Source: Paeniglutamicibacter sp. Y32M11
GTDB lineage: Bacteria; Actinomycetota; Actinomycetes; Actinomycetales; Micrococcaceae
Direction: 5' to 3'
Assembly (NCBI RefSeq): GCF_019285735.1
Contig: NZ_CP079107.1
Span: 1,178,001 to 1,242,000 of the forward strand
DNA length: 64,000 nucleotides
A program made the position numbers and the translations under genes. Below the pieces are notes generated by a model, which saw nothing but the letters and a program-made list of their open reading frames with translations, was not told the origin of the DNA and did not search any database. Below, piece after piece: positions 11,820 to 29,773 of this stretch; position 1 is the stretch's first letter; every line of letters starts with the position of its first letter.

Positions 11820-14800
11820 ATGACCGCCCAGCTGGATGCAATGCCACGTCTTCCGAAGCCGGGGGACATCGTCGAGGCGCGGGGCGCGACCTGGGCCGTC
11901 GCGGATGTCCGCGAACAGGGTCTTCCGCGCAGCTCGGCTGACGACGGGGTTCCTCAGCTCAACCACGTCATCTCGCTGCAATCCTTGGCCGAAGACAGGA
12001 TGGGCGAGGAGCTCAACATCATCTGGGAGCTGGAGGTTGGTCACTCGGTCGCCCCGGACCAGGGCCTGCCGGAGGTAATCACCCCGGAGGGGTTCGATGA
12101 CCCGAACCGTCTGGCCGCATTTGTCGACGCCGTTCGCTGGGGCGCAGTGACTTCTGCAAACGAGGGCGCATTCCAGGCACCATTCCGCTCTGGAGCGAAC
12201 GTCGAGGCCTATCAGCTCGAACCGTTGCGTCGAGCTCTGCAAGCACCACGCACCAACTTGCTACTGGCAGATGACGTCGGGCTGGGCAAGACGATCGAAG
12301 CTGGCCTTGTTGTCCAGGAACTGTTGCTTCGGCACCGGGCCCGTTCTGTCGTCATCGTGTGCCCGCCGAGCCTGTCGCTGAAATGGCAGGACGAGATGCG
12401 AGAGAAATTTGGTCTTGACTTCGTCATCGTCAACTCTGAGGTAATGGCCGAGGTACGTCGTACTCATGGCCTGAATGCCAATCCACTTCGACTCTTTCCA
12501 CGCGTGATCGTGTCGATGGCCTGGTTGCCGGGGCTCCGCGCGCAGCGGCTATTGCGGGACGTCTATTCCGAGGCCGGCAAAGTTAACAGTGCTCGCCGAT
12601 ACGCGTTCGACCTGCTCGTGGTCGACGAAGCCCACCACGTTGCTCCATCGAGCCCGTCGTCAGTCGGTGGCGCTCGGGGATACGCAGTGGACTCCCAGCG
12701 CACGATTGCCGTGCGTGACCTTGCAAAGGTCTGTGAGCACCGGCTGTTCCTTTCTGCGACACCGCACAACGGGCACTCCGAATCCTTCACAGCGCTGCTG
12801 GAGATGATCGATAACCGCCGCTTCTCCCGGGGAGCCACGGTCGACCCCGCAGCGCTGAAGGATGTGACGGTGCGCCGGCTCAAGCGGGACATCAAGGAGA
12901 AGGGCTTCAAGGCGCGCCGGCTCGAGACAATCCACTTCGCTCCGAGCAAGGACGAACAAGATTCGTTTGAGACACTTGACGGCATCTTGGAAGCGAGCGC
13001 CCGGGCGAATGGACAGAAGCGTTCTGGCGATATCGTTTCGATGCTGCTGAAGAAGCGCTTCCTGTCCAGTCCATACGCATTCGGGTCCACGTTGGCTGGC
13101 TACCGCGCGACCGCCGCTGCGGCTCGGGGGGAGTGGGACGACGAGGACGAATACTACGCCGAGGTCCTGGGCTCTGACCAATCGGATGAGGAGGAGGGCG
13201 GAGCCGAACACCCGGAGTTCGACGCGCTGCGCCGGTCCAAATCGACGGACCCGCTCGTGACGGCCACACCGGAGCAGATTGGACGGCTCGTGGACTGGGG
13301 TCTCGGCTACCAGTCCAAGCCTGACTCCCGGTTGAAGGCATTGATCGAATGGCTTAACGCGATTTGCAGGCCTGACGGCAAGACTTGGACCAACGAACGC
13401 GTGGTCATCTTCACCGAGTACGCCGACACTCTGAACTGGATCGTCGAGAACCTGCGCCAGCGTGGCTACGACGAGACGCGTCTGGCCACGATCGAGGGCT
13501 CGATCGGAACCGACGACCGCGAACTGACCCGTGCACGCTTCAACGCCGACCCCAGCCGCGAACCCATCCGCGTACTGGTAGCCACCGACGCCGCCGGCGA
13601 GGGCATTGACCTTCAGTCGTACTGCCACCGTTTGGTCAACTTCGACGTCCCCTTCAACCCATCGCGACTGGAACAACGCATCGGCCGTATCGACAGATAC
13701 GGGCAGACCGAGACTCCCAAGGTGTATCAGTTCCTGCCCGAAAAGTCGGCCGGAACCTACGGGGCGGACATGGACTTCATGCGCCGTATCGCGGAAAAGG
13801 TCGCAACAGTCGCCGACGACTTGGGCTCGGTGAATCCGGTGATTGACGCCGACATACAGAACCACTTCGGTCGGATCAAGGTCGCCAAGCACTCCCAGGT
13901 GCTCAAGGATGAAGGCAACGCCATCATCAACAAAGCTCTGGCCGGCGACCAGGAGATCAACCGGGCACTTACGGAGCTCGCGAATACCTACGACGTGCAA
14001 AAAGGCCGGATGCACCTGACTCCGTTCAATTCACGCCGCGTCATTGACACCGCACTCGCCTTGACCAACCAGCCAATCCTTCTCGAGGAAGGCTCGCAGG
14101 ACTTTGATGCCGAGGTGTTCCGCGTTCCGGTACTGGGCCGGTCATGGCAAGACGCTGTCAAGGGCCTGGACACCCGCCTTCACCCGGGGGCGTACCGGCC
14201 CATCACCTTCGATGATTCCGTGCTTCAAGGCGGATTCGAGGACGTTGTCCACGTGCACCTCGGGCATGGTCTGATGCAGAAATCAGCCCGCATCTTGCGC
14301 GCGTCGCTGTTCAGTGCCGAGTCCTCAATCAATCGGGTGACCGCAGTGGTCGTACCGGGCATCGAACAGTCTTGCGTCGCGGCGATCTCCCGTCTGGTTC
14401 TAGTTGGGCGAGGTGGACTACGCCTGCATGAGGAAATCTTCGTGACCGGCATCCGTGTCAAGGGTCAGCGACTGGCTGAGTCAAAGGCCGAAGCCTTGCT
14501 CGAACAGACTCTCGATACCTCGGATCTCACTCTGGCAGATGAAACTATTCGATCCAGTTTGGCTCAAGAATGGAATGCTGAGAATGGTCGACTGCGTTCC
14601 CGTCTAGAAACGGAGATGCGCAAACGCGCGACTAAGCAGCAGGAGTCGGTCACCGCCGATCTGGAGAAGCGCAGGAATGCAGATATCGAACGTGCCACGC
14701 AGATCTTTGCCAACTTCCGCCGCAACCTGCAGGAATCCCTGCGTGATCGGCGGGAGAACCAACACGAGCTTGAGGGGATGCTGTTCGACTTCGACCCCCG

Positions 14801-14987
14801 GCAGGCCGAGCAGTACCGCTTGGATATCCGGTCGATGGAGAATCGTCTGGCCAATCTCGCCGAAGAAGAGGCGCGCGAAATTGCTGCGATCACGGAGCGT
14901 TACACCGACATCCGTCCCTTCGTTTCAGCTGCGGCCGTGGTGTTCGCGCTGACCGAACAGGACGCCAAGCAGGGAGAACTGTCATGA
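11820..14987 (+). CDS. drmD: DISARM class 1 SNF2-like helicase DrmD
   Basis: A 1055-residue SNF2/RapA-type helicase. Walker A is DDVGLGKT at about 150, followed by the SNF2 motif CPPSLSLKWQDEM and the DEAH box VVDEAHHV near 268; the second RecA lobe carries ATDAAGEGIDLQ near 590 and QRIGRIDRYGQ. The C-terminal 250 residues are charged and coiled-coil (LRSRLETEMRKRATKQQ). DrmD is the signature subunit of class 1 DISARM, an anti-phage system that uses DNA methylation to tell self from non-self; its motor probably moves on DNA. The start at 11820 is chosen for the GGGGAG upstream and the typical MTAQLDAMPRL beginning; the frame is open 15 codons further. Its stop overlaps the drmMI start (ATGA), giving translational coupling. 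Confidence 0.9.
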   Translation: MTAQLDAMPRLPKPGDIVEARGATWAVADVREQGLPRSSADDGVPQLNHVISLQSLAEDRMGEELNIIWELEVGHSVAPDQGLPEVITPEGFDDPNRLAAFVDAVRWGAVTSANEGAFQAPFRSGANVEAYQLEPLRRALQAPRTNLLLADDVGLGKTIEAGLVVQELLLRHRARSVVIVCPPSLSLKWQDEMREKFGLDFVIVNSEVMAEVRRTHGLNANPLRLFPRVIVSMAWLPGLRAQRLLRDVYSEAGKVNSARRYAFDLLVVDEAHHVAPSSPSSVGGARGYAVDSQRTIAVRDLAKVCEHRLFLSATPHNGHSESFTALLEMIDNRRFSRGATVDPAALKDVTVRRLKRDIKEKGFKARRLETIHFAPSKDEQDSFETLDGILEASARANGQKRSGDIVSMLLKKRFLSSPYAFGSTLAGYRATAAAARGEWDDEDEYYAEVLGSDQSDEEEGGAEHPEFDALRRSKSTDPLVTATPEQIGRLVDWGLGYQSKPDSRLKALIEWLNAICRPDGKTWTNERVVIFTEYADTLNWIVENLRQRGYDETRLATIEGSIGTDDRELTRARFNADPSREPIRVLVATDAAGEGIDLQSYCHRLVNFDVPFNPSRLEQRIGRIDRYGQTETPKVYQFLPEKSAGTYGADMDFMRRIAEKVATVADDLGSVNPVIDADIQNHFGRIKVAKHSQVLKDEGNAIINKALAGDQEINRALTELANTYDVQKGRMHLTPFNSRRVIDTALALTNQPILLEEGSQDFDAEVFRVPVLGRSWQDAVKGLDTRLHPGAYRPITFDDSVLQGGFEDVVHVHLGHGLMQKSARILRASLFSAESSINRVTAVVVPGIEQSCVAAISRLVLVGRGGLRLHEEIFVTGIRVKGQRLAESKAEALLEQTLDTSDLTLADETIRSSLAQEWNAENGRLRSRLETEMRKRATKQQESVTADLEKRRNADIERATQIFANFRRNLQESLRDRRENQHELEGMLFDFDPRQAEQYRLDIRSMENRLANLAEEEAREIAAITERYTDIRPFVSAAAVVFALTEQDAKQGELS

Positions 14988-17900
14988 AGTCACACGGTAC
15001 CCAGCGACGCACCAGAGAGCACCGGGACTGGCTCGAACTCGTCGACCGTGACGGCCCGTTCGTTGCAATTCCTGCGATCAAGCGCGTGTGGCCCCAAGGA
15101 ATGCCCCAGTTGGGAGCGAGTGCGAAGGCTGCATTGCGGGACGCTAAGCCAAACTTTGATCGCGCTTGGGATGACTGGAGCAAGGGCCCTACGGACGACG
15201 ATGCCGCTGTTGAGTCGTATCGTGGTGCCAGAAACAAGTGGATCGATGCCGTGCTGCGTGACGTCGCCCGCTGGGACGCGCACTTGGTTTGGGACGACGA
15301 AGAGCTCGGTGGGAGTCGACCTCGAGGGGCATCCGCAAAACACATGATCGGTGCTAAGGCAGCCGGAAAATTCGTTCGCGAGGGTGTCGCTTCCGCATTG
15401 GTGATGGTCTTCGATCCTGTCGATTCGCTGCGGGATCCACTCAATGACGCCTGGACCGCAAGCCCCATCGACCGGATGGACGCGCTCCTGCGCAAGTCCG
15501 AGCAAAAAGTCGGTGTGGTCACCGACGGACGTTGGTGGGCAATCATCTGTGCCCAGGACGGAGTCATGACTGCCTCCGGCATTGTCGACGCACAGACGTG
15601 GATCGAAGAGTCGGACGTCCGTGATGCCTTCCTTGAGCTCATCTCGCCCCAGCGTCTGGCTGGCGGCAGTGAAAGCGATCGGCTGCCGGAATTGTTCCGC
15701 GAGTCGATCACTGCAGCGGAAGACATCACCGTCGCCCTGGGTACCCAGGTACGTCGCGCTGTCGAGCTCTTGGTCACAGCCTTCTCCGAGGAAGCGTTCG
15801 AAGCGCGAGAAGCCGGATGGCCCGACCCGCTGCCGGCTGACCGCGTGCTGGTCTACGAGGGCGCAGTTACCGCGATGATGCGTGTGGTGTTCTTGCTATT
15901 TGCCGAAGAACGCTCGATGATGCCCCAGTCGCCACTGTTTACTGAGGCCTACGGTGTAAGCGGTCTGCTGGATGACCTGGACAAACGCATACGCGATGAA
16001 GGCCCTGAAGCCCTTGACGCAACGCACTACACCTGGCATCGTCTGCTTGCAACGTCCAAGGCGCTGTATGGAGGAGTAACTTCTGAGGACGTTCGACTGC
16101 CCGCTTACGGCGGATCGCTCTTCGATCCGGAACGCTTCCTCTTCCTCACTGGTATTGACGAGCGTGGTGCCTTGGCAATTGCAGTCAACGACCGTGTCAT
16201 GCTCGAAGTCTTGCGAGCTGTACAGTACGCAGTCATTGGTACGGGCAAATCGGCAGAGCGTCGAAGAGTGTCCTTCCGTGACATCGACGTCGAGCAGATC
16301 GGCTATATCTATGAAGGCTTGCTGGGGTACACAGCCAAGGACGTAGACGAGGTAACGGTCGGGCTCGTCGGTAAGGACGGAGAAGAACCGGAAATACCGC
16401 TTCGGGTACTAGAGGAACTCGTCGAGGCGAACCCAGTCCCTGCAGAGTTCGTGGCCTCGGTCATCGCGTGGGTCAAGAAGAAGCAGCCGGCGGCCACGAC
16501 GCTGTCGGCTGCTGCCTTGCCGAAATTGCTGGATGCAACGGTTGAGGACGGGGAACGTGCCCTTTTATCTGTGACACGTGATGACGCGCTGCTGGCAAGA
16601 CTACGACCGTTCCTAGGCATTATTCGCCGCGATCTGCGTGAATGGCCTGTAGTCATCCAGCCAGGCGGACTCGCAGTCGTTGAGACCCCTTCACGAGCAA
16701 ACTCCGGAGCACACTACACACCGAAGTCGCTGGCCCAGGAAGTCGTACGCTATGCACTCGAACCGCTGGTATTCCAACCCGGTCCGCACCAGACTGCCGA
16801 CGAATCGCAGTGGAAGCTGCTTGACTCCAATGAAATCCTCGATCTCAAGATTGCCGACATTGCTTGTGGATCAGGGGCTTTCCTTGTGGCTGCCGCCGAG
16901 TATCTGGCGGAGAAGGTTATTAATGCTTGGCATGCCGAAGGCATCACTGGTTCCCCACACGAGCTCGAGATAAAGGCTAGGCGGCAGGTCGTTGCTCATT
17001 GCCTCTACGGCGCTGACATCAATGGCATGGCGGTGGAGATGTGCAAAATCTCCCTCTGGCTTGTGTCTCTGGATCCGAGGGTTCCGTTCTCCTTCGTTGA
17101 TGACAAAGTGCTTCACGGGAATTCCCTGCTTGGCATCACTGACCTTCGCCAACTCGAGGCTGGGCATATTGATCCTTCTCGGGTGAAAACGCTTAAAGGG
17201 GGAACCCACTACTCTTCGGGCACGCTCTTTGGAGAAGGCTCAGAAGCACAAGGCCTTCACGTGATTGACGTCCAAACGGTGGTCCAGAAGGCTGTCAGAC
17301 TGCGTCAAGGCTTGGCCAACGTCGTCGACGAGAACGATCCTGCACGCTCGACCAAAACCAAACGAAGGATCTGGGACGAATATCAGGGACTGATCTCGCA
17401 GCTTAGCGATTTGGCAGACGGCGTCATCGCTGCTGGGCTGATTGAGGGTGGAAAACCGAGCAAGAAGCTTGACGAACAGTACGTCAACTTGCGGATCGCC
17501 GCGGATCGCGCGTTCGCTCCGAACGGGAAGGACGATCGAGCGATGCTTAAGGGCATCATCGACAAAGGGCTGACCCCGTCGGTCGAGACCGACTACGAAC
17601 GGTGGAAGCCTTTGCACTGGGCTTTGGCTGTACCCGATGTCATGGAGCGGGGAGGATTCGATGCAATCATCGGAAATCCACCATTCTTAGTGGGCAAAAA
17701 GATCTCGGGTGTGATCGGCGTTGAACACCGCGCATTTCTGGTTAACCAAATTGCTGGCGGTATTACAGGTAACACCGACCTAGTTGCGTTCTTCTTACTG
17801 CGAGCCACGCGTCTACTTACGCAAGCGGGGACTTTAGGTCTGGTGACTGCAAAAGTTATTGCAGAAGGTGACACTCGCGAGGTCGGGCTGGACACGTTGG

Positions 17901-19057
17901 TCGCGGCAGGATTTAAGATCCAACGCGCTATCCGAAGCGAAGATTGGCCCGCCAAGTCGGCCGCCACAAGGTACTCAGTGATTTGGGGGGGATTCAGCGT
18001 CCAAGCAAAAGAACGCGTCTTGGACGGCAAATCAGTCGCCCTTATTACTCCGTCACTTGAAGAGGGTGGGCGAGTGGTCGGGATCCCATTCAAACTTGCT
18101 CAGAACAAGGGGCTGAGTTTCAAAGGGTACGATCTCGGTGGGGACGGATTCCAGTTATCCGAGGCAGAAGCCCGGGACATGATTGAAACCGATCCAAGAA
18201 ACGGAGAAGTGCTATTCAGATACCTCAATGGCAAGGACTTGACTTCAAATCCGGATCTCCAAGGGGAAACGTGGGTAATTAGTTTCGGGACGCGAACGTT
18301 GGCTGAGGCGCGCGAATATCGTGCACCATTTGATCGCGTTCGTGATCTTGTATACCCGGTCAGAATGAGAAGTAACCGAAAAGCTCACCGTGACCGATGG
18401 TGGATCTATTCCGAAGCTCGTCCATCGTTGACCGAACGACTTGCCGGTTCCAGTGCGGTTATTGGCATCTCGGCTGTGAGCGTCCATGCCGCGCCGATGA
18501 TTATTCCAGTTGGGGCAATAATGAGCAGCGCGATTGTAGTCATACCGGACAGATCTTTTAGTAATCTGGCGGTCTTGTCATCTTCGGTTCATTCGAATTG
18601 GGTGTTGAGGTGGGGTTCTTTGTTGGATCTTCGCGTCCGATACTCGACTACGGATGTGCTTGATACGTTCCCGTTGCCACAAGTGAACGAATCTCTCGAT
18701 TCGATCGGCAAAGAACTGGATGTCAAGCGCCGTAAAATAATGCTTGAACGGGGACTTGGCGTTACCAAGTTATACAACCTTGTGAACGACCCAGACGTGA
18801 CCGATCGCGATCAAGATATCAATGAGCTTCGGCAAATGCAGGTGCGAATTGATCACGCGGTGATGAACGCCTATGGCTGGTCCGATATTCCTCTCGAGCA
18901 CAGTTTTCATGAATACCGTAAAATTTTCCGATGGACTGTTGATCCTAGCGCGCGGGTGCGAATACTTGACCGACTCCTCGAGGAGAACCACCGTCGTGCA
19001 GCACTCCAGAGCCAGGAAGTTTCGTTCTCCAGTTCGAAGGACAGTGACGACGAATGA
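14984..19057 (+). CDS. drmMI: DISARM class 1 adenine-N6 DNA methyltransferase DrmMI
   Basis: A 1357-residue type IIG/PglX-like methylase. The N-terminal 550 residues are a helical, target-recognition-associated part. The catalytic core has HYTPKSLA at about 575, the AdoMet-binding motif ADIACGSGAF near 622 and the catalytic NPPF (DAIIGNPPFLVGK) near 894, diagnostic of N6-adenine methylation; a C-terminal target-recognition region follows. In DISARM the methylase marks host DNA so that it is spared. Length and architecture resemble BREX PglX, but the neighbours (DrmD, DrmA, DrmB, DrmC, no PglZ or BrxC) settle the assignment. It overlaps drmD and drmA by 4 bp each. No endonuclease domain is evident. 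Confidence 0.9.
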   Translation: MKSHGTQRRTREHRDWLELVDRDGPFVAIPAIKRVWPQGMPQLGASAKAALRDAKPNFDRAWDDWSKGPTDDDAAVESYRGARNKWIDAVLRDVARWDAHLVWDDEELGGSRPRGASAKHMIGAKAAGKFVREGVASALVMVFDPVDSLRDPLNDAWTASPIDRMDALLRKSEQKVGVVTDGRWWAIICAQDGVMTASGIVDAQTWIEESDVRDAFLELISPQRLAGGSESDRLPELFRESITAAEDITVALGTQVRRAVELLVTAFSEEAFEAREAGWPDPLPADRVLVYEGAVTAMMRVVFLLFAEERSMMPQSPLFTEAYGVSGLLDDLDKRIRDEGPEALDATHYTWHRLLATSKALYGGVTSEDVRLPAYGGSLFDPERFLFLTGIDERGALAIAVNDRVMLEVLRAVQYAVIGTGKSAERRRVSFRDIDVEQIGYIYEGLLGYTAKDVDEVTVGLVGKDGEEPEIPLRVLEELVEANPVPAEFVASVIAWVKKKQPAATTLSAAALPKLLDATVEDGERALLSVTRDDALLARLRPFLGIIRRDLREWPVVIQPGGLAVVETPSRANSGAHYTPKSLAQEVVRYALEPLVFQPGPHQTADESQWKLLDSNEILDLKIADIACGSGAFLVAAAEYLAEKVINAWHAEGITGSPHELEIKARRQVVAHCLYGADINGMAVEMCKISLWLVSLDPRVPFSFVDDKVLHGNSLLGITDLRQLEAGHIDPSRVKTLKGGTHYSSGTLFGEGSEAQGLHVIDVQTVVQKAVRLRQGLANVVDENDPARSTKTKRRIWDEYQGLISQLSDLADGVIAAGLIEGGKPSKKLDEQYVNLRIAADRAFAPNGKDDRAMLKGIIDKGLTPSVETDYERWKPLHWALAVPDVMERGGFDAIIGNPPFLVGKKISGVIGVEHRAFLVNQIAGGITGNTDLVAFFLLRATRLLTQAGTLGLVTAKVIAEGDTREVGLDTLVAAGFKIQRAIRSEDWPAKSAATRYSVIWGGFSVQAKERVLDGKSVALITPSLEEGGRVVGIPFKLAQNKGLSFKGYDLGGDGFQLSEAEARDMIETDPRNGEVLFRYLNGKDLTSNPDLQGETWVISFGTRTLAEAREYRAPFDRVRDLVYPVRMRSNRKAHRDRWWIYSEARPSLTERLAGSSAVIGISAVSVHAAPMIIPVGAIMSSAIVVIPDRSFSNLAVLSSSVHSNWVLRWGSLLDLRVRYSTTDVLDTFPLPQVNESLDSIGKELDVKRRKIMLERGLGVTKLYNLVNDPDVTDRDQDINELRQMQVRIDHAVMNAYGWSDIPLEHSFHEYRKIFRWTVDPSARVRILDRLLEENHRRAALQSQEVSFSSSKDSDDE

Positions 19058-22000
19058 CAGTTGAGAATGGGGCCGCCGCTCGGCAGGGGGCGCCCTTCCC
19101 GGATTACGAACTGACGAACGCTCCTGATGGATCGTCCTGGACGGATCGCGAGAACCTGAGCGACATCATGGAACGCGAGCTACTTGGCCCCGCTCACGGG
19201 GATGACGAACTCTTAGACGCAGTGCCGGACGCTTTGTACCTAGTGGGCCGCATCGCGCCGGCAAAGTTGATAGGCAAGGGCGGAGTGACGCTGGCCGAAG
19301 ACGCAGAGAATGCTGCTGACGAGGATGTCGTTTCTGCAGGGGAATCTGATCTTGGACGCGGTGTTCCAGCCGTGCAAGAAAGCGAGACAGGCGGCTCGGA
19401 CGATGAAGGCGCCGAGGACGTTCCACTGCGTCGTGGACTGATGATTCCTGCCTCAATGGGACTGCGTTTTCAGGTCGGTCTCGACGTTGAGAGCGTCGTC
19501 ATCCGTGCGGAATGGGGTACTTACCGTTCGGAGGAGTCGGATGAGGTCACTGCGTCGGGCAGGCAGAAGCGTAAGTTCCGTCGGACTCAGCATGCCTACC
19601 CGGTGTTAGTACCCGTCGGTTCCTTGCAAGCGGGGGAGACTGCAGATTTTCCTTTGGAGGATTCGATCCTCATCCGCGTGGATGTCATGGACTACGAGGG
19701 TAAGCGGATTGTAGAAGCCGCGCTGTGCAATGACCGTGAAACCCCTCGACAGATCCCGGTGGACGCTTGGCTCTATCAAACCAAGCTCTACGTTGAGGCC
19801 ACCACCGACGCGTCCCATAAAGACGTCTTCCTCCCGGTGGCCGATGCCATGGAGGATCCGCATTTGGACAGCGAGCCGGAGCTTGCCCGTCTTCAACTGC
19901 AGTACCGGGACCGGCTGGAATTCGGCATCGGTCGAACCTGCTCGGTTGACTGGACTGTGGCCAAAGGGGCACGTCGGGCGACACAGGTTCGGACCACTTG
20001 GTTGCCGGTCTCCGAGACGCCGCAGACAAGTGCACTCGACATCGACGGCGTGCTGCTCGACATGACCAAACTCGCGACTGTGGGCGTCCGGGAACTGGGC
20101 GCTGGATTGCGTCCAATCGTGGAGGGATACCAATCGTGGTTGGACGGGCAGAAATCGCTTGCCACCGCGTTGCCAGACCACCTTCAGGACGTCGCCGCCG
20201 AAGCGATACAGGACGCAGGAGTGGTGGCAAAGCAACTAGAACGTGGGATGGACTTCCTACTCGGCGACGAGAAGGCTCTGCGCTGTTTCCGATTCATGAA
20301 CCGAGTCATGGCCGACCAACGTATCCAGACCCAAGTCGCCGAACTTCGTGCCTCACACCCCAAACTCAGCCTGAATGCTGCCCATGCCCAAGTGCTCAAG
20401 CTAGGCCCCCGCGCACATTCATGGCGCACGTTCCAGCTGGCGTTTGTGTTGATGCAACTCGAAGCTCTGACGAATCCGGAACTCAAGCGTCGTTCTTCCT
20501 CGATGGCCAAAGCCGAGCTGTTGTTCTTCCCAACGGGTGGTGGCAAGACCGAGGCTTATCTCGGCCTCGCCGCATTCACGTTTGGGATCCGGCGTCGCCA
20601 GGGCGTCATTGACGGTGCAGACGGCCGGATCGACGGCAACACCGGCGTCGCGGTCCTGATGCGCTATACGTTGCGCCTACTGACCGCCCAGCAGTTCCAG
20701 CGCGCGACTGCACTGGTGTGTGCAGCTGAGGTTGCCAGACGTAAGGACGAAGCAACATGGGGGACCGAGCCGTTCCGCATTGGCCTGTGGGTCGGCACCG
20801 CCGTCTCGCCGAAGCGGTATGACGAGGCGGCCGAACAACTTGCCGAGGCCAACGACGGACGCAAGTACGGTCTAACAGTCCTTCAGCTGCAGCGATGCCC
20901 ATGGTGCGGGACTCCGATCGAACCCAAGAACGTCAAGGGCGACGATGCCCAGCGAAGAATTCGTGTCTACTGCGGCGACGACTTCGGTGACTGCCCGTTC
21001 TCTGAGGGCGCACAGGGCAGCAGTGAAGGACTTCCGGTCCTGACGGTTGACGAGGAAATCTATCGGCTGGCTCCCTCGTTTGTCATTGCGACGGTGGACA
21101 AGTTCGCCCGTCTGGCTCGCGAAGGCGAAGCCGCGGCCCTTTTCGGGTACGTACGCAAGTGGTGCGAGCGGCACGGGTACGTGCACGATGACCAACATAA
21201 ATTCTGCAAGATTGATATCGGGGGCAAACACCCCGCCAGAAATGGTATGCCATCCGCTTCAGTGCGTGCAACGGACAGGTTGCGGCCTCCGGACCTGATT
21301 ATCCAAGACGAACTGCACCTGATCACCGGAGCCTTGGGCACAGCGGTCGGGGCGTTCGAGCTCGCGGTTGACGTTCTGACAACGTGGAAGGACGCCGCCG
21401 GGAACTCGATCCGCCCACTGGTCGTGGCCTCGACCGCGACGGTACGCAACGCAGCCGAGCAGATCAAAGCGCTGTACGGTCGTCGCGTAACAATCTTCCC
21501 ACCCCAGGTGTTGGACGTCTCGGACACCTACTTCTCTACGGAAGTTCCGGTAACACCAAAAACGCCCGGACGCCGTTACATCGGCATCAGCACCACGGGC
21601 GTGAGACTGACCTCGGCTGAGATCGTGGTAGCCAGTACTTTGCTGTCGGCGGGCCAAATACTTATGGATCAGGCGCAAGCGCCAGCGGCGGATAAACCGG
21701 TTTCGGCGGACCCCTACATGACCTTGGTGGGCTACTTCAACGCCACCCGCGAATTGGCAGGTATGGCCCGCTACGTTGCAGATGACGTGCAGACAGCGAT
21801 CAAGAAGCGGCGACCGGGCAAGAATTTCCCGCCTCGATACGGCACTCAGCCGGCGGGTCTAAATGTTGCGGAGCTGACCTCTCGAGTCTCTTCCTCCGAC
21901 ATCACCGGAACTCTTGATCAGATGGGTCTGGCTTTTGACCCACATTGGGACTCCAATGAAGGGAAAAAATTACGAGCTGTCGAGTCCCGGGCCGCGCGTG

Positions 22001-22827
22001 AGGCCAACAAACGCTTTACCTACCGTGGGCCTGATCCGTACGACGTTGTGCTGGCGACCTCGATGCTCCAAGTGGGTGTTGACGTGACCAGGCTGGGGCT
22101 GATGCTGATGATCGGCCAGCCGAAGAATACTGCCGAGTACATTCAGGCTTCCTCTCGCGTGGGACGAGACGCCTCCAGACCCGGGTTGGTGGTCACGCTG
22201 GGCAACTGGGCGCGGCCCCGGGACCTAGCACACTTCGAGCAGTTTCGCCACTATCATGAGACCTTCTACTCCCAAGTGGAGCCGCTGTCGGTCACGCCGT
22301 ACTCTTACACCTCGATCGACAGATCCCTCGATGGAGTACTTGTCAGTGCTGCACGGGTATCGGAGGCAACCCGGGCTGAGGGGCTTTCAAATGAGCGCAG
22401 CGCTTGGCGGATCGACGACTCACTAGGCCGTCTCGACCTGTTGATTGATCAGATTGTCGAGCGGGCCAAGATCGCTGGCGGCGAGGAAGCCGCCCACGTG
22501 GTTGAGGAACGTCTGAAAAATCGACGTGACCAATGGTCCAAACGACGTGCATTCGTCCAGAAGAAACACCACCAACTGGTGTACGAGAAGATTCCTGAGG
22601 GCAAGGACGGCGAGTTCAGCGCTCTGCTACTCTCCCCGGAAAACCAGCGAGCAAACATTGGAATGGCAGACAGCCCGCCGTTCACTGTGGCCAACTCGAT
22701 GCGCGAGGTACAGCCGGAGATCAATCTGCTCGTCACGCCTAAGAAGGAGAATCTCATGTCCTGGGAACTCCAAGATGCACCGGAGTGGGTACCTGCTCCT
22801 AAGCAGGATGGAGAATCTGATGAATGA
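19054..22827 (+). CDS. drmA: DISARM core helicase DrmA
   Basis: A 1257-residue DEAD/DEAH-like helicase. The N-terminal 480 residues are family-specific. Then come Walker A FPTGGGKTEAYLGLAAF near 490, a probable zinc-binding insertion with CPWCG and CGDDFGDCPF at about 613-650, a DEAD-box variant IIQDELHLITGA near 750 and the second lobe with QVGVDVTRLGLM and QASSRVGRD at about 1005-1045. DrmA and DrmB form the DNA-binding DISARM core complex; DrmA is the ATP-driven motor that engages incoming, unmethylated DNA. It is coupled to drmMI by the ATGA overlap and overlaps drmB by 8 bp (or 20 bp if the upstream drmB start is used). Confidence 0.9.
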   Translation: MTVENGAAARQGAPFPDYELTNAPDGSSWTDRENLSDIMERELLGPAHGDDELLDAVPDALYLVGRIAPAKLIGKGGVTLAEDAENAADEDVVSAGESDLGRGVPAVQESETGGSDDEGAEDVPLRRGLMIPASMGLRFQVGLDVESVVIRAEWGTYRSEESDEVTASGRQKRKFRRTQHAYPVLVPVGSLQAGETADFPLEDSILIRVDVMDYEGKRIVEAALCNDRETPRQIPVDAWLYQTKLYVEATTDASHKDVFLPVADAMEDPHLDSEPELARLQLQYRDRLEFGIGRTCSVDWTVAKGARRATQVRTTWLPVSETPQTSALDIDGVLLDMTKLATVGVRELGAGLRPIVEGYQSWLDGQKSLATALPDHLQDVAAEAIQDAGVVAKQLERGMDFLLGDEKALRCFRFMNRVMADQRIQTQVAELRASHPKLSLNAAHAQVLKLGPRAHSWRTFQLAFVLMQLEALTNPELKRRSSSMAKAELLFFPTGGGKTEAYLGLAAFTFGIRRRQGVIDGADGRIDGNTGVAVLMRYTLRLLTAQQFQRATALVCAAEVARRKDEATWGTEPFRIGLWVGTAVSPKRYDEAAEQLAEANDGRKYGLTVLQLQRCPWCGTPIEPKNVKGDDAQRRIRVYCGDDFGDCPFSEGAQGSSEGLPVLTVDEEIYRLAPSFVIATVDKFARLAREGEAAALFGYVRKWCERHGYVHDDQHKFCKIDIGGKHPARNGMPSASVRATDRLRPPDLIIQDELHLITGALGTAVGAFELAVDVLTTWKDAAGNSIRPLVVASTATVRNAAEQIKALYGRRVTIFPPQVLDVSDTYFSTEVPVTPKTPGRRYIGISTTGVRLTSAEIVVASTLLSAGQILMDQAQAPAADKPVSADPYMTLVGYFNATRELAGMARYVADDVQTAIKKRRPGKNFPPRYGTQPAGLNVAELTSRVSSSDITGTLDQMGLAFDPHWDSNEGKKLRAVESRAAREANKRFTYRGPDPYDVVLATSMLQVGVDVTRLGLMLMIGQPKNTAEYIQASSRVGRDASRPGLVVTLGNWARPRDLAHFEQFRHYHETFYSQVEPLSVTPYSYTSIDRSLDGVLVSAARVSEATRAEGLSNERSAWRIDDSLGRLDLLIDQIVERAKIAGGEEAAHVVEERLKNRRDQWSKRRAFVQKKHHQLVYEKIPEGKDGEFSALLLSPENQRANIGMADSPPFTVANSMREVQPEINLLVTPKKENLMSWELQDAPEWVPAPKQDGESDE

Positions 22828-24838
22828 ACCTCTCGAAACTGGCGGGGTCTTGGACCCGGTCGGCGATTTGGAGGCTGACGGTGCTCAATCGGCGACCAAA
22901 AATCGAGCCAAGGTGGGCTCCTCGCGGCCCTCGTCTTTGCTGTACACCTATGGACCGGGCGCCACGATGGACCTTCCATCCTTCACGATCATGCCAGCTG
23001 GACTTGATGATTGGGAACGAATTTGGGCTCGTAGAGGATCGGTACCCACGGTTCATGCTCCACGGCTGTTGGACGCAGTCAAAGTCCATCTGGGACCGCA
23101 GGTTGCCGAGTTACGGCCGTTCCCGTGGGCACCGAAGCCGTCGTCCAATAGTAAGGAAGGCGACGATCTTGGCGTGCCCGCACGCGTGTTTCCGCAATGG
23201 CTGCGCTGCACCCATTGCGACATGCTTGCCCCACTTACTCGATTCGCCTACCGCAATACCAACCCCTACCGGCCAGACCAAGCACGGTTCGAGCATGATA
23301 AGTGCCCCGGTCGCAAGGGCCGCATATCCAAAAGACCAATGCCGGCTGTCCCTGCCCGCTATTTGCTCGCTTGTCCTGACGGGCATCTAGACGAATTCCC
23401 CTACGACTGGTGGGTCCATGAGGGCGTCAAATGCACGGCTGCGGAAGTTCCCAACATGGCGATGCACGACCAATCAGTGGGCAAGGGTGCATCGGCCACG
23501 ATCGAGTGCGGAGCTTGCGGGCTGAAACGTCCAATGAATCAAGCACAGGGCGAAGCCGGCGCGGCCAAATTACCGCGTTGCCGTGGCCGGCATCCGCACC
23601 TCGGTCTCTTCGACAAGGATGGCTGCCCTAACGCCACCAAGCTCATGTTGCTTGGTGCCTCAAACCTTTGGTTCCCCGCCAGCCTCTCTATTGTTGTCAT
23701 GCCGGAGGTCAGCGCCGAGTCCCAAGAGACGGTTGCCGCTGAGCTCCTCAGAGTCGCAGGGCTCAAGCGGCTTGAAAAGTTTGGTAGTGACCTCGACAAA
23801 TGGCGTGAGTATCTGGACGATGAGGATTCTCCCCTTGTCGGTCTTTCGGATACTGATATAGCTGCCGCGATCGCCCGTCTGTTAGAGCCGCCGCCATCGG
23901 AGGAGGAACTAGCCGAGCAGCGACGCAATTTCGATCCGATCTCCCTGCTCGTTCCGGAATGGAACTTCCTGCTGCGAGATCCCCTCGGCAAGTTGCACAA
24001 GGCCGACGAGAAAAGTGGTCTCGTCCTGTCTCCACCACTCGGAGGAATCCATCCCGGTCTATCTGCCAAGCACGTCACCCGTGTCATGGCCATTGACAAG
24101 CTGCGCAAGGTCAATGCGGTCCTCGGCTTTACTCGTATCGATGAGATGGAACGAGCCAACGACATCGGCCAGCGTCTAGTCCATTTGAGCCGAAGCGGTC
24201 GGCCGAAATGGACGGTGGCCACCGAAGATCGTGGCGAAGGGATCTACCTGCAGCTTGATGAGCAAGCTGTCGCTTCCTGGGAAACGAAGATCGAGGTCAC
24301 CGACCTGTGGGAAGCCCATCGCGCTGCGCATGAACGGAACTTCCTCGCACGATTCTCTGACACAGCGAAGGACGTTGATCCTGAGAGTCGGTTCCGCCCG
24401 GCTAGGTACTGGCTGATGCACACGCTCGCCCATGTGCTTATCCGTGAGATGGCTATGTATGCCGGATACTCGGCTGCCTCGCTATCCGAACGAATCTATG
24501 CGTGGAAGCCCGAAGGGGAACGGCCTGCTGCGGCCGGACTTCTGATCGTGACGACAGCATCGGACTCCGACGGCACGCTCGGCGGGCTGGTCCAGCTGAG
24601 CGCTCGGGACAATCTCGAACGCGTGATGAGCAGGGCACTTGAACGAGCTCTTCGTTGCTCGTCGGACCCAGTGTGCGCGCACCGGATCCCTAAGGATCCC
24701 GAAGAGTTCCTGCACGGGGCTGCTTGCCACACCTGTGCCATGGCGTCCGAGACCTCTTGTGAGCGGGCCAACCGCTTCCTCGACCGCAGGTTTCTTGTCG
24801 ATCTCCCCGGGTCGGTGGGACTTGGCTTCTTCAACTGA
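22820..24838 (+). CDS. drmB: DISARM core protein DrmB (DUF1998)
   Basis: A 672-residue protein with the DUF1998 domain at the C-terminus. Near the start is LLYTYGPGATMDLPSFT, a typical DrmB opening. Two cysteine-rich patches look zinc-binding: CTHCDMLAP with a later CPG near 130-165, and CAHRIP with CHTCAMASETSC at about 617-650. DrmB partners DrmA and is needed for anti-phage activity; the conserved cysteines belong to DUF1998. The start at 22820 follows GGAG at good spacing; an ATG at 22808 in the same frame is the alternative. It ends 7 bp before drmC. Confidence 0.9.
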   Translation: MNEPLETGGVLDPVGDLEADGAQSATKNRAKVGSSRPSSLLYTYGPGATMDLPSFTIMPAGLDDWERIWARRGSVPTVHAPRLLDAVKVHLGPQVAELRPFPWAPKPSSNSKEGDDLGVPARVFPQWLRCTHCDMLAPLTRFAYRNTNPYRPDQARFEHDKCPGRKGRISKRPMPAVPARYLLACPDGHLDEFPYDWWVHEGVKCTAAEVPNMAMHDQSVGKGASATIECGACGLKRPMNQAQGEAGAAKLPRCRGRHPHLGLFDKDGCPNATKLMLLGASNLWFPASLSIVVMPEVSAESQETVAAELLRVAGLKRLEKFGSDLDKWREYLDDEDSPLVGLSDTDIAAAIARLLEPPPSEEELAEQRRNFDPISLLVPEWNFLLRDPLGKLHKADEKSGLVLSPPLGGIHPGLSAKHVTRVMAIDKLRKVNAVLGFTRIDEMERANDIGQRLVHLSRSGRPKWTVATEDRGEGIYLQLDEQAVASWETKIEVTDLWEAHRAAHERNFLARFSDTAKDVDPESRFRPARYWLMHTLAHVLIREMAMYAGYSAASLSERIYAWKPEGERPAAAGLLIVTTASDSDGTLGGLVQLSARDNLERVMSRALERALRCSSDPVCAHRIPKDPEEFLHGAACHTCAMASETSCERANRFLDRRFLVDLPGSVGLGFFN

Positions 24839-24845
24839 AGGACCT

Positions 24846-25574
24846 ATGGCGAGGACAGATGCCTTCCGGAAGCTCGGTGTCCTGCTCACGGGGACCGAGG
24901 CTGGCCTAGTTGCCGAGGCGCTTGAGGATGGAGAAAGCCTGACTTCGGCAGTCGGAGCGATCGACGTCGCCAAGCGCCCAGACGTTTCCCGAATTCTTGG
25001 TGCAGCAGGTCTGCGCTTTGAAGGTAGCCTCGTCGCGGCGGTCTTGCGGGGGATCGAAGGTGCGAGGTCCACGACACGCGCGGTGGACACATTGTGGACG
25101 TCGCCGGGGCACGTTTTCGGATCGGGTGCCTTGACGACGTCCTTGGTCTCGATGGTCGATAACGCTCGGCGATCTGTAGTGTGTTCGACCTTCAACTTTC
25201 AGAAGACCTCCGGAATGTGGACGGCGCTCCACCACGCCGCGAAACGACCTGCTGTCTTAGCCCGCATCTACATCGATGCGGAAGCTAACGCCGGTGAACG
25301 AGGTCCTAGCGCTGATGAAGTCGCAACGTGGCTATCGCCGGGAGTTGTGCTCCGAACGAAAAAGTTCGGTGGAAAATCAGTCCGCAACCACGCGAAGTTT
25401 GTATCAATTGATCACCGTTTCCTAGTCATTACAAGCGCAAACTTCAGCTGGAGCGCCGAATACGGCAACATCGAACTTGGCGTTGTCATTGATGATGAAC
25501 ATCTGGCCGAGCGCATTGAAAATGAACTGCGCGCGGCCGAACCACACCTCTATGAACGCCTGAACGGGGCCTAG
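24846..25574 (+). CDS. drmC: DISARM phospholipase-D-like protein DrmC
   Basis: A 242-residue protein with a single phospholipase-D/HKD motif: NHAKFVSIDHRFLVITSANF at about residues 180-200, supplying H, K and the downstream S/N pair. Members of this superfamily can act as nucleases by dimerising to complete the active site. DrmC belongs to the DISARM core gene triplet, although it has been reported as dispensable or partly dispensable in tested systems. The start at 24846 is preceded by AAGGA. It sits 7 bp after drmB and only 2 bp before the disrupted DUF262 gene, so all six lie on one likely transcript. Confidence 0.88.
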   Translation: MARTDAFRKLGVLLTGTEAGLVAEALEDGESLTSAVGAIDVAKRPDVSRILGAAGLRFEGSLVAAVLRGIEGARSTTRAVDTLWTSPGHVFGSGALTTSLVSMVDNARRSVVCSTFNFQKTSGMWTALHHAAKRPAVLARIYIDAEANAGERGPSADEVATWLSPGVVLRTKKFGGKSVRNHAKFVSIDHRFLVITSANFSWSAEYGNIELGVVIDDEHLAERIENELRAAEPHLYERLNGA

Positions 25575-26441
25575 AAATGGAATCACATACTCGGAGTCCT
25601 CGGGAACTCTTTGAGGGTAAGGAACACTACGAAATCCCGGCATTTCAGCGACCTTACGTCTGGAACGAAGAAGATCAATGGGCGCCACTTTGGGACGACG
25701 TACTTCGTGTTGCCGAAGGTTTTGTCGTTGCCAAACTCGAAGATGAAGACGCTGACCCCGAAGGACAGCATTTTCTAGGTGCGGTAGTATACGAGTCCAA
25801 AAAGCCCGTAGCCGGTGATGTCACTCGGCATGATGTAATTGACGGTCAGCAGCGGATGACTACAATCCAGATCCTTCTGGATTCTGTGCACGAAGTCGTT
25901 AGCGCGCGGGGTCACGATGACCTGGCCGAATCCCTCGAAGAATTGATCATCAACGGCTCGCCGCGGTTTAAAGGTAAGAAGGAACGCTTCAAACTATGGC
26001 CATCTCAGGCTGACCGGAAAGCGTTCGAATTCGCAATGGACTCTAGCGGAGATTGGACCGGGGAGCACCGAATCATTGAAGCCCATCGATTCTTTCTCAA
26101 CGAAGCTGAGCGATGGATATCAGGTGAACCGGACGAAGACGAAAAATTCCCACCTGGTGATGAAATTTTGCGAGTGGAAGGGCTCAGCTCGACTCTGCAA
26201 GACAGATTGTTGCTCGTAGCTATTGACCTTACGGGTCACGATGATGCACAACTGATCTTTGAGACGCTGAATGATCGTGGAACCCCACTGCTCAAAGCGG
26301 ACTTGATAAAGAATTGGATCTTCCGTGAGGGAGAAAAACTGAAGGCAGACGTCAACCGCTGGGCTGATGAAGTTTGGGCTGAATTTGACGGCGTCTGGTG
26401 GCGTGAAGAGATCAGTCAGGGAAGGCTGATATGTAAGAAGG

Positions 26442-26719
26442 TTTGTCAAGAGTCATAGATGAGCGGCTTCCGGAAAACAGACTTCCGGGAGCCGCTCTCC
26501 TCATGCCCCGGCGGTGGCGTCGAGTCTGGTTTGGCAGGTCATGGTCGACGACATGGTCAGACTGATAAACGCGGGTTGGGTACCGCATGACAAGGAATTC
26601 GAGTGGAGCGTAACGTGGTCTAAATTCGGGCGTCGGCTTTGGGCCTACCCATAGTCTGTCCTCGTGTTGGCTCCGCATGTTGCCTCGTCCAGGTGCGCCC
26701 GTCGGGGCACGTCTTAGGG
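26442..26719 (-). ncRNA. Candidate bridge RNA region of the IS110/IS1111 element
   Basis: This 278-bp stretch between transposase stop and element end has no coding potential but contains a stable hairpin (26461-26497; arms GAGCGGCTTCCGG and CCGGGAGCCGCTC) and further short complementary segments. IS110-family recombinases use a bridge RNA with two loops, one matching the target and one the donor ends. In the IS1111 group it lies 3' of the transposase, as here. The plus-strand stretch GGTCTAAATTCG at 26617-26628 shares CTAAA with the target half CTAAACCG, a possible guide, but the match is short. Confidence 0.4.
26459..26500. repeat. Strong hairpin at the left end of the IS110-type element
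   Basis: Arms 26461-26473 and 26485-26497 pair at 12 of 13 positions with an 11-base loop. It may be part of the bridge RNA or serve as a terminator protecting the element from read-through out of the DISARM operon. Confidence 0.6.
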
Positions 26720-27829
26720 TCACCGTCCTATCATGGGACGGCCTTCCTGCAGCGGCGCGGCCAAGGACCAGCACCAACCTGCAAGTTCGCGGGCAACGGC
26801 GGTCCGCGCCTTCACGGGCATCTTGTGCCGGTCATCGAAGGCCACGGCACGGGCGTGGAGGCGTTGGTTGCCCTGCCGAGCGCGGGCTGCGGTGGCCGGG
26901 GACACCAGCTCGAGCTGGCGTAGCTCCTGGACCCCGGGCCTGCGGTACGGGCGTTTGTGCACTGTGGCTGCCTCAACCAGCAGGTGGCGGGCGTAGGTGT
27001 TTCCGGCCTTGGTGATCGAACCTTGGGTTCGAGTCTCGCCCGAGGAATGCTCCGAGGGGACCAGCCCCAGATAGGAACCGATAGTGGCGCCAGTGAAGCG
27101 GGTCCAGTCCCCGATCTCGGTGGCCAGCCCGAAGGCACCGACGATACTGAATCCCCGTAGGCAGGCCAAGGCATTGATGACCTCGGTATACCGGCAGTTA
27201 GCCGCCACCCGGGCGACTTCCTTATCAATGCGCTTCAGCCGCACGGACATGGATTCCTCTTGCGCCAAGGATTCCTGGAAAGCGAACTCCAGTGCCGGGT
27301 CATCGAAGTGCTGCTGATGCAGCCATTTCAGGTGTTCGCGGGTCCATCGGGACTTGCCGCCGTGGAAGAGGACGCCGTGTCGCAGCAGGATCGCGTTGAC
27401 CCGCTGCTTGGCATGAGAGAGATCGATCGAGGCGACGTGTCGTGTCCGCGAAAGGTCCCGCAGTGCTTCCTGTTCAGTGTCTGGGATGGTGACCTTGGTG
27501 ACTTCACCCAGGGCGAGCATACTTGCTAGGATTTTGGCATCTCGGCGATCCGTCTTAACGCGGTCGCCAGGAGCTCGCAACAGTTTCGAAGGGGCGGCGA
27601 TCACGCAGTCGATGCCGGCGGCCTGGAAGTGTCGGGCCAATCCGAAGCCTGTGGGCCCGGCCTCGTAGACGACCCGGACCTCGGGGCCGAAGCCCTGTAC
27701 CCACTCCGAGACGGCCAGAAGGTCGTCCTCGAAACATGAACGGGTCAATTCGCCGGTGTCGATATTCAGTGCGCATCCTACGATGCTGCGGGCATGGACA
27801 TCGAGCCCGATATAGGTACGCTCGAACAT
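26720..27829 (-). CDS. IS110-family transposase (DEDD recombinase)
   Basis: A 369-residue protein with the N-terminal DEDD_Tnp_IS110 RuvC-like domain (YIGLDVHARSIVG, with later acidic residues in VVYEAGPTG and KTDRRDAKIL) and the C-terminal Transposase_20 domain (CLRGFSIVGAFGLATEIGDW), with the serine-containing QGSITKAGN of the family. Start chosen at 27829 because GGAGG lies 8 bp before it; the frame is open 5 codons more. It appears intact and full length. It is transcribed opposite to the interrupted DISARM-operon gene, which limits read-through into the 3' half. Confidence 0.92.
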   Translation of the reverse strand: MFERTYIGLDVHARSIVGCALNIDTGELTRSCFEDDLLAVSEWVQGFGPEVRVVYEAGPTGFGLARHFQAAGIDCVIAAPSKLLRAPGDRVKTDRRDAKILASMLALGEVTKVTIPDTEQEALRDLSRTRHVASIDLSHAKQRVNAILLRHGVLFHGGKSRWTREHLKWLHQQHFDDPALEFAFQESLAQEESMSVRLKRIDKEVARVAANCRYTEVINALACLRGFSIVGAFGLATEIGDWTRFTGATIGSYLGLVPSEHSSGETRTQGSITKAGNTYARHLLVEAATVHKRPYRRPGVQELRQLELVSPATAARARQGNQRLHARAVAFDDRHKMPVKARTAVARELAGWCWSLAAPLQEGRPMIGR

Positions 27830-29073
27830 AGCCGGGACCTCCAACCTTCAATGTGGCTCTACCATTCCACCGCGGTTTGGCTGCAAGGCCAAGACCCGAA
27901 CGCATGGCAAACCACGAAACTTTGAAGCGGAGGTCTCGGCCCCTCTTATATATTGTCTAAACCGTTCGAGAATTGATATTTTCCTGCAGTACTGGCTGAT
28001 AATGCGCCGGCAAGATGAAGTAAAAATTGAACACTCTTTCCGGATATTCACAGATTACGCTAAGCCCTTAATGACCTCGGTTGCCGATGCCGAAAGACTC
28101 CTGCGCGATCTTCGTCGAGATGCTGATACCTATCGAGAGTTCTCGCAGCTGGATGTATCGACTCCAGAAGGACGGTTCTACTCGCGGGTGATTGAACGCC
28201 TCGAACTTGCCGTAACCACCCCAGTGTTCCTATGGCTGCTTTCAACGAACCACGGAATTCCTGCTGAGCAAAGGAAAATTGGGCTTGAAGCGTTCGAAAG
28301 CTGGGCCATTCGACGAATGATATTGCGGTTGCCGACCAAAGACATGAACAAATTTGCGATTGCGATTCTTAAGATGTTGGATTTCGGTTCACCGGGAACT
28401 GCTGGACACCAGTTAGTCAGTTACTTGTCGGAGCAGAGTGCGGAAACGCGCGTTTGGCCTCTGGATTTTGACATGCATAATCAACTTCCTTCAAAACGGG
28501 TCTACGGGAATATTCGTCAGGACCGACTCCGCGTAATTCTTGGTGCCGTGGAGCAACATTTGCGAGGGAAGAGCTCCAAATATGAGGCAGTTGATTTACC
28601 GAGCAAACTCGAAATTGAACATGTCATGCCTCGTGGATGGCGGAATTACTGGGATGCCGAGCCAAAGCTGGGTCAGGAAGCAGCTGCTGATCGCGATGCG
28701 TTGGTAAATACCATCGGCAATTTGACGCTTGTTACCAAGTCACTGAATGGATCGCTGTCAAATCGGCCATGGACAGACGAAGAAGCAAGCCAGCTTCGCG
28801 AAGGCGGTTTGCCCGGAACCGGAAAACGAACGCTGCTTGACCAGTTCAGCCTGCTCGTTCTGAACAAGGAAATTTTGGTCAATCACCCGGTCCGGTGGAC
28901 TGAGGAGAATATTAGGGACCGTTCGGCAGAGATAATTGCCAATATCTGTGACGTGTGGCCCGGGCCCGACTTGGTCGCACAAAGTCGACCGTAATGGTGA
29001 TTCGCCAAGATTAGAAACGACTTACGCGGATTCGGTTATTACAAAAATACTTGTGAATAAGGAGAAAATATAA

Positions 29074-29559
29074 ATGGATCCAGTTAATGAGTGGGACTGG
29101 GCGGATGTTTTATCCCTTGTAGTCACCTTCCTAACCGGAGTGGGCGTATTCGCCATCGTCTGGCAAATAATAGGTGAGCGAAGTGCCCGGCATCGTGAAT
29201 TCGAGAATATGTATGTGCAACGGTACTGGGATATTGCTGGGCGCCTGCCTGTTCGATTCGTCCAAGGTCATGAAAAATATTCGATGGGTAAGTCTGAGAG
29301 AATAGCCATGCGCGAATATCTTATTTTATGCGAAGACGAGTTAGATTTGCGCAAAGAAGGTTACATAACCGATAGAACATGGGAGATTTGGAAGTCAGGC
29401 ATTATTGGAACAATCCACGACCCAAAAGTGAAGACAGTTATCAACGAATTTCCCTCGACTAGATTAGTAAATATTCGTGACCTAATGAATATTTCAAATG
29501 GAAATAGCGATCCCCTCAATAGAACTAAAATTCGTAGGTGGTGGAATGGCCTTCGGTGA
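29074..29559 (+). CDS. Small unknown membrane-anchored protein, AT-rich
   Basis: A 161-residue protein with one TM helix near residues 10-32 (DVLSLVVTFLTGVGVFAIVW) and a charged cytoplasmic part rich in arginine and tyrosine. It resembles the DUF4760-type small membrane proteins in layout only; I cannot name a family. The start is preceded by AAGGAGAA at good spacing. Codon use is distinctly AT-rich (ATA, AAT and TTA are common), unlike the surrounding actinobacterial genes. It follows the split DUF262 gene by 79 bp and may have been part of the same defence unit. Confidence 0.65.
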   Translation: MDPVNEWDWADVLSLVVTFLTGVGVFAIVWQIIGERSARHREFENMYVQRYWDIAGRLPVRFVQGHEKYSMGKSERIAMREYLILCEDELDLRKEGYITDRTWEIWKSGIIGTIHDPKVKTVINEFPSTRLVNIRDLMNISNGNSDPLNRTKIRRWWNGLR

Positions 29560-29765
29560 TCATGCCGCATCGATGATCCTGTACTAGTCGCACCTCAGTC
29601 TGGTTCGCTCGGAAGCGGAATAAGCCTCACAAGCCTGCCGTTTTCTATAATAGATAGCGGCAAGCCTGCGGCTGACTGTCAGACTTGAACAACATGGGCC
29701 GGGCTTGACTCGGACGTTTTCTGACCTGCCAAGAAGCCAAGAAGTAGTGTCATGAAGCGGGCCGT

Positions 29766-29773
29766 CATTAAGC
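29766..29773. repeat. Target-site duplication, left copy (CATTAAGC)
   Basis: Identical to 31188-31195 on the other side of the ISL3-family element. Confidence 0.9.

Follow-up and report, generated by a model that had tools for sequence, protein, structure and literature searches.

A DISARM (defence island system associated with restriction-modification) operon in Paeniglutamicibacter sp. Y32M11 is followed directly by a GmrSD-family gene that has been broken by an insertion sequence (IS). The window, i.e. the whole stretch of DNA analysed, comprises 64,000 nucleotides of contig NZ_CP079107.1 (positions 1,178,001 to 1,242,000). Very probably the locus represents an apparently intact DISARM operon with a broken GmrSD passenger that was captured behind drmC, as an optional rider and not as a sixth DISARM subunit. 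Genes with DUF262 domains do stand beside drmC in other genomes, and these also look like riders.

The DISARM operon and its interrupted neighbour

The five drm genes extend over 11820–25574 of the + strand and all of their reading frames are open (Table 1). From drmD to drmB, neighbouring genes share 4, 4 and 8 bp, and drmC follows after a 7-bp gap. An earlier interpretation, made from the letters of the DNA without database searches and termed here the sequence-only reading, had described five overlapping or abutting DISARM genes, and this is borne out by the coordinates and by PADLOC profile matches for all five. By the PADLOC rule, class 1 DISARM has drmA, drmB, drmC, drmD and drmMI all present (PMC9252829), and the window has the full set (5/5 by profile). 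DrmE is not among the matches listed in a PADLOC scan of nine window proteins (the five Drm proteins, both gmrSD halves and the products of 29074–29559 and 6971–10768). On the features tested, the operon is a member of class 1 and is apparently intact. The window resembles class 1 DISARM in its five core genes and their overlapping or abutting arrangement, but differs in having the broken gmrSD-type gene 2 bp after drmC.

Table 1. Positions of the drm genes, the two parts of the gmrSD-type gene and the IS110-family element within the window
Feature	Position	Strand	Evidence and remarks
drmD, SNF2-like helicase	11820..14987	+	ATG 11820, open frame from GTG 11775; PADLOC DrmD E 0; PF00176/PF00271
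drmMI, MmeI/Eco57I-type DNA methyltransferase	14984..19057	+	PADLOC DrmMI E 0; PF07669, PF20466
drmA, helicase	19054..22827	+	PADLOC DrmA E 1e-293
drmB, 672 aa	22820..24838	+	PADLOC DrmB E 6e-70; relatives annotated DrmB or DUF1998
drmC, PLD-family nuclease, 242 aa	24846..25574	+	PADLOC DrmC E 1e-104; PF13091
5′ part of gmrSD-type gene, DUF262 with DGQQR	25577..26458	+	PF03235 E 5e-36; native codons 1–283, then short IS-derived tail
IS110-family element	26426..27958		Junction comparison, ends within ~3 bp; CT at both ends, AAA beyond right end
IS110-family transposase (DEDD + Transposase_20)	26720..27844	-	PF01548 2e-14; PF02371 3e-14
3′ part of same gmrSD-type gene, DUF1524 HNH domain	28002..28994	+	PF07510 E 5e-21; alignment

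The DUF262 frame starts with the ATG at 25577, behind the drmC stop at 25574, and has 293 codons. In-frame homology of the C half restarts at about 27959, ahead of its first ATG, and over residues 291–630 it matches the protein of a Blastococcus DISARM locus (L108) at 56%. On the PADLOC profile PDLC02693 (543 positions) the N half corresponds to 1–217 and the C half to 265–542; the halves are consecutive on one profile, and this indicates that they were formerly one gene. The native codons (283 + 345) add up to 628, the same as in the orthologue L142, and the sequence on either side of the element is co-linear with that of whole relatives. By this codon count, the insertion cost the gene no codons. 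Its continuity, whether as one gene or as adjacent gmrS and gmrD genes, is gone, an IS110-family element of ~1.53 kb lying between the halves. The sequence-only reading of a DUF262-DUF1524 gene 2 bp after drmC was therefore right in position and strand but not in taking it for a single cistron, as the domains are in separate frames with the element between them. Reading raw sequence by domains can miss an IS inside a gene, and the locus is a case for caution.

Two more full copies of the element are present in the genome, with 0 and 5 mismatches over 1533 bases, and the terminal CT and the AAA past the right end are common to all three. The insertion looks recent, because the further genomic copies are 100% and 99.7% identical, and by this sequence comparison the element is a recently active one. 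An Rfam scan across it gave no match up to E 0.1, and a scan for promoters and terminators near the halves gave counts at the level of shuffled sequence. Since the IS separates both domains, GmrSD function has most likely been lost in the window. The genome has no further match to DUF262 or to the alignment of orthologues.

Family, fold and proposed past role of the rider

A GmrSD-like family had been proposed by the sequence-only reading, and PF03235, PF07510 and the motifs bear this out. An alignment with whole orthologues shows that close whole relatives and the window halves alike retain the DUF262 DGQQR and the DUF1524 HNH (EH..P, GNLTL..N) motifs; in it, L144 is translated from TTG, and the row for the C half begins at 27969, inside the open frame. 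When a profile of the relatives was compared with PDB sequences, it matched a DUF262 protein (9jfl), SspE and further entries with a DUF262 or DUF1524 domain; three weak matches to chemotaxis proteins (E ~0.001) are likely due to chance. The fold was modelled with the 634-aa Blastococcus relative from L108. The model, based on a 37-row alignment, has a mean pLDDT of 87.7 (57 for an 8-row model), and its 10 PDB matches at E <= 0.001 are all chains of SspE, DndBCDE-DndI and BrxU entries. By sequence and predicted structure, the rider is a GmrSD-family protein with an SspE/DndI/BrxU-like fold, and both domains and their motifs are found.

SspE and DndI are phosphorothioation-sensing DUF262 nucleases. 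Among solved structures, they match the relatives of the window gene best, in fold as well as in sequence, but the neighbours of the window gene are DISARM genes and the genome has no DndB match. A phosphorothioation partner was looked for by a search that was aimed at DndB and did not take in other ssp/dnd genes; with no DndB match, nothing found favours a Dnd-like sensor.

The likeness to GmrSD-type IV enzymes and BrxU lies in the combination of DUF262 with DUF1524, in the DGQQR and HNH motifs, and in the location of the gene in or beside another defence operon. BrxU inside a BREX (bacteriophage exclusion) operon is a precedent for such pairing (PMC8565348). The window gene, unlike BrxU, is beside DISARM and not BREX and is interrupted by an IS, and the L108 protein is 12–14% identical to BrxU in the fold alignment. 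Another extra defence gene of DISARM-like operons encodes the DISARM-associated ShdA (Shield-like RmuC protein), which belongs to a different protein family and is reported from Pseudomonas only (PMC10270631). No report of an operon combining DISARM with GmrSD was found in the literature searched, and a search for papers on GmrSD together with actinobacteria and Arthrobacter gave none.

Most likely a separate GmrSD-family gene of ~628 codons, with an N-terminal DUF262 NTPase and a C-terminal DUF1524 HNH nuclease, was captured 2 bp behind drmC, where its placement may have led to co-transcription with drmC. By analogy with BrxU, SspE and DndI, the DUF262 domain of the whole protein most likely bound a nucleoside triphosphate and sensed a DNA modification, after which the HNH domain would cut. 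DISARM acts on unmethylated DNA (PMC9142583), and the rider would cover modified phage DNA. The recent IS110-family insertion then parted the two domains without loss of codons, leaving the drm genes open. That the rider once acted on modified phage DNA alongside DISARM is plausible by this analogy. The accessory restriction gene of the sequence-only reading can be looked at as a fair account of the gene's past.

Might the insertion instead have made the fused enzyme into a working pair of separate GmrS and GmrD polypeptides? GmrS and GmrD were originally described as two proteins (PMC8565348, PMC10952713), and both halves have the family motifs and open frames, with no codon lost. However, the split site comes directly behind the counterpart of Arg289 in L108, in a turn that the model places between strands 284–287 and 290–293, and Gly288-Arg289 at the break is nearly invariant. 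The first ATG, GTG or TTG of the C half is 15 codons into its native part, and visual inspection shows no clear ribosome site for it. The insertion also looks too recent for the open frames to be a sign of selection. We consider a working pair very unlikely.

DUF262 genes behind drmC and away from DISARM

The closest relatives of the operon support the reading of a captured and dispensable rider. In the DrmB tree, one pair is formed by the window and Arthrobacter wenxiniae (L039; the two DrmB proteins match at 92%) and another by Paenarthrobacter histidinolovorans (L040) and Arthrobacter sp. 35W (L041); the four group together at 100. The gmrSD gene is split in the window and reduced in 35W to a 34-codon remnant (residues 1–34) whose first codon position is 2 bp behind the drmC stop, and none was found in ~9 kb behind drmC of L039 and L040. 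The four operons have kept their drm genes and a whole gmrSD was found in none of them; a whole copy is not retained wherever DISARM is kept. Parsimony would most simply place the capture in the ancestor of this Arthrobacter-related clade.

Whole orthologues occur away from DISARM. Scans of 394 class genomes and 395 family genomes (overlapping sets) gave whole orthologues in seven (G381 from the class set; G006, G564, G045, G536, G803 and G478 from the family set), with 55–65% identity to L108 and with 54–81% identity to the better-matching half of the window gene. For none of the seven did blastp with the window proteins find a DrmA, DrmB or DrmC homologue in the surrounding 20 kb. In the N-domain tree, the window gene is nested with four such separate genes from the family and genus of its host (SH-aLRT 96). 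DISARM-linked DUF262 genes fall in several unrelated branches of a tree whose DISARM-linked rows were selected on linkage and whose remaining rows mostly on similarity to L108, and counts of labels are biased in this way. In G045 (L144:1283-10735), the orthologue is followed at a distance of 28 bp by same-strand DrmD-like and DrmMI/type IIG-like genes that belong to another system; the group may represent an operon of the ARMADA or BREX kind. Two TAG codons reported there flank the open frame of the orthologue. Orthologues (59–60% to L108) are also found on two IMG/VR viral contigs (L166:8013-9929 and L167:8013-9929), and the neighbours of the latter may, by eye, resemble type III restriction genes.

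The wider survey covered 84 related loci chosen as those closest in DrmB (80 out of 554 relatives, plus L022–L025), which are actinobacterial where named. At least 3 kb behind drmC (or drmB) is visible in 73 and at least 8 kb in 60, and DNA upstream of drmD is mostly outside the loci. A DUF262 profile of 18 rows, including the window, L060 and L108, which match by construction, found DUF262 sequence behind drmC in 10 of the 84, all within 3.4 kb, on either strand and at spacings of 2 bp to 2.8 kb. These are the remnant of L041 (2 bp), L107 (143 bp), L060 (180 bp), L022 (536 bp, convergent), L044 (1.8 kb), L115 (1.8 kb, opposite strand), L108 (2.7 kb, counted to its own start), L109 (2.7 kb, frames broken), and L103 and L114 (2.5–2.7 kb, opposite strand). 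There was no match in the other 74 within the DNA covered, some of which is ended by contig ends. Pfam confirms DUF262 in nine of the ten, the L041 remnant being outside the scan. DUF1524 is above the Pfam cut-off only in L060 and L108 and borderline in L022, the C-terminal piece of L109 being outside the scan. The case that would have refuted the sequence-only reading, a complete lack of DUF262 neighbours at other class 1 DISARM loci, does not hold. Neither does the 0–20 bp spacing that it expected to recur across taxa: among 85 loci (the 84 and the window) this is found only in the window and the decayed 35W remnant, both of one four-operon clade and neither a whole copy.

These findings bear on a rival reading, in which DISARM has the DUF262-DUF1524 protein as a functional sixth subunit that works with DrmAB, for example as a missing nuclease. 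The gene is on the same strand as drmC at a 2-bp spacing, the 35W operon has the identical junction, and DISARM can do without DrmC, with DrmAB possibly bringing in a different nuclease (PMC9142583). Against this, the spacing is not recurrent, the gene is split, decayed or not found in the four closest operons, the seven whole orthologues are separate from drm genes, and 74 of the 84 related loci have no DUF262 match in the DNA covered. The reading was rejected on spacing, decay and separate orthologues; it is largely refuted, and we give it almost no credence.

Does general clustering in defence islands alone explain the location, the position behind drmC being functionally meaningless? Proximity was counted by eye from listings for 56 DrmB-positive genomes (~387 Mb, 73 DUF262 places). 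DUF262 is within 10 kb of DrmB in nine of 65 places (window excluded), compared with 0.25 expected by random placement, and seven of these nine come from a single group at family level, in which kinase and DUF262 genes have a common arrangement. In the same genomes, control counts are 3/35 for HSDR_N and 0/13 for PglZ (3/48), and the difference between 9/65 and 3/48 is not significant (Fisher p 0.23). DUF262 is far above random near DrmB, but there is no significant excess over other defence genes, and a DISARM-specific linkage was rejected on this test. The first open reading frame (ORF) behind drmC is also very varied. In a rough census based on longest-ORF gene calls (70 loci; L041 dropped, 9/80 without usable drmC or flank), there are seven C5 methylases, six M78 peptidases, three GmrSD_N and two GmrSD_C, with other listed families present once each. 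On the other hand, the exact 2-bp junction behind drmC suggests co-expression, and all ten DUF262 matches among the 84 loci are within 3.4 kb of drmC, though 60 loci show at least 8 kb. Clustering alone has, in our judgement, slightly less than an even chance.

A broader idea can be put forward tentatively. The slot behind drmC in class 1 DISARM may have recruited unrelated, modification-sensing DUF262 nucleases repeatedly and independently, with fast turnover, to give a two-layer defence like that of BREX and BrxU. This is possible, though we are inclined to doubt it. If true, DISARM would act against unmodified DNA and the rider against modified DNA, and the window would present a rider just switched off by a mobile element. 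This gives a BREX-BrxU-like hypothesis for DISARM that is testable with whole relatives.

Several points weigh against a rider captured once and since broken. A single ancestral capture followed by losses is a parsimony argument from four operons, and two captures at one junction are possible. The motifs and open frames of the halves, together with the first finding of GmrS and GmrD as two proteins, leave a little room for a two-part function. The PDB superpositions of L108 are loose overall, with TM-scores of 0.27–0.58. One genome, G220, has a contig-split copy (54–56% to L108); the half that was covered (L158, 9.9 kb) has no Drm match. DrmA-like (36%) and DrmB-like (27%) genes are present in G045 at ~17 kb from the orthologue, outside its 20-kb region. 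The Blastococcus DISARM loci L108 and L109 have a close relative (51–68% to the halves) 2–3 kb behind drmC. These last two arrangements are some sign of a non-random pairing of DISARM with gmrSD.

DISARM loci from other sources were also considered. Six of 74 plasmid records with a DrmB match were covered, and five of the six loci have annotated DISARM genes; in these five, the gene table, which is incomplete, lists no DUF262 behind drmC or drmB. In Deinococcus sp. AJ005, drmD is preceded at ~2.9 kb by a gene of the DUF262-DUF1524 type. The DrmB loci of viral contigs (L119–L121) gave no match to the N or C half by blastp with window proteins only.

Other genes of DISARM loci and of the window

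The commonest first gene behind drmC is that for the C5-cytosine methylase (7/70, L039–L118), and in L103 (12768-14329) it is followed by a Vsr endonuclease gene. One actinomycete family (L123–L129) has seven DISARM loci in which genes for a protein kinase and a DUF262 protein of ~750–765 aa stand behind drmC on the same strand, and five of the seven also have a UvrD-like helicase. This DUF262 type is present at >=54% in 13 genomes. UvrD-DUF262 is found with no DrmB or DrmC match in the DNA covered in L246, L247 and L249, with a DrmC fragment in L248, and with DISARM more than 20 kb away in L251 and L252. As it lacks adjacent DISARM in some genomes, the UvrD-DUF262 set may be a separate module.

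In some DISARM operons, the stretch between drmMI and drmA contains part of the DrmMI target-recognition region a second time, in inverted orientation, together with a serine or tyrosine recombinase gene (L023:5211-9099 and L024, both of G039; L042:2262-6095; L073:2762-5858; L096:3072-6009). The inverted arms are 118–570 nt and 74–98% complementary. The arrangement is present in four genomes among 78 loci with drmMI and drmA both visible and is absent from the window. It looks, from sequence, like an invertible cassette for phase-variable DISARM specificity. No DISARM paper on phase variation by inversion or recombinase was found, as judged from titles or the starts of abstracts. In L079, an inverted copy with 73% arms has no recombinase in sight.

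Upstream of DISARM in the window, a 1265-aa ORF (6971-10768, - strand) has no Pfam match. It matches TIR-type pAgo-associated profiles weakly (E 7e-7, residues 59–239) and is possibly another defence gene. Behind the C half, 29074-31084 contains a 161-aa ORF without Pfam match, followed by an ISL3-family transposase gene (29807-31084, - strand).

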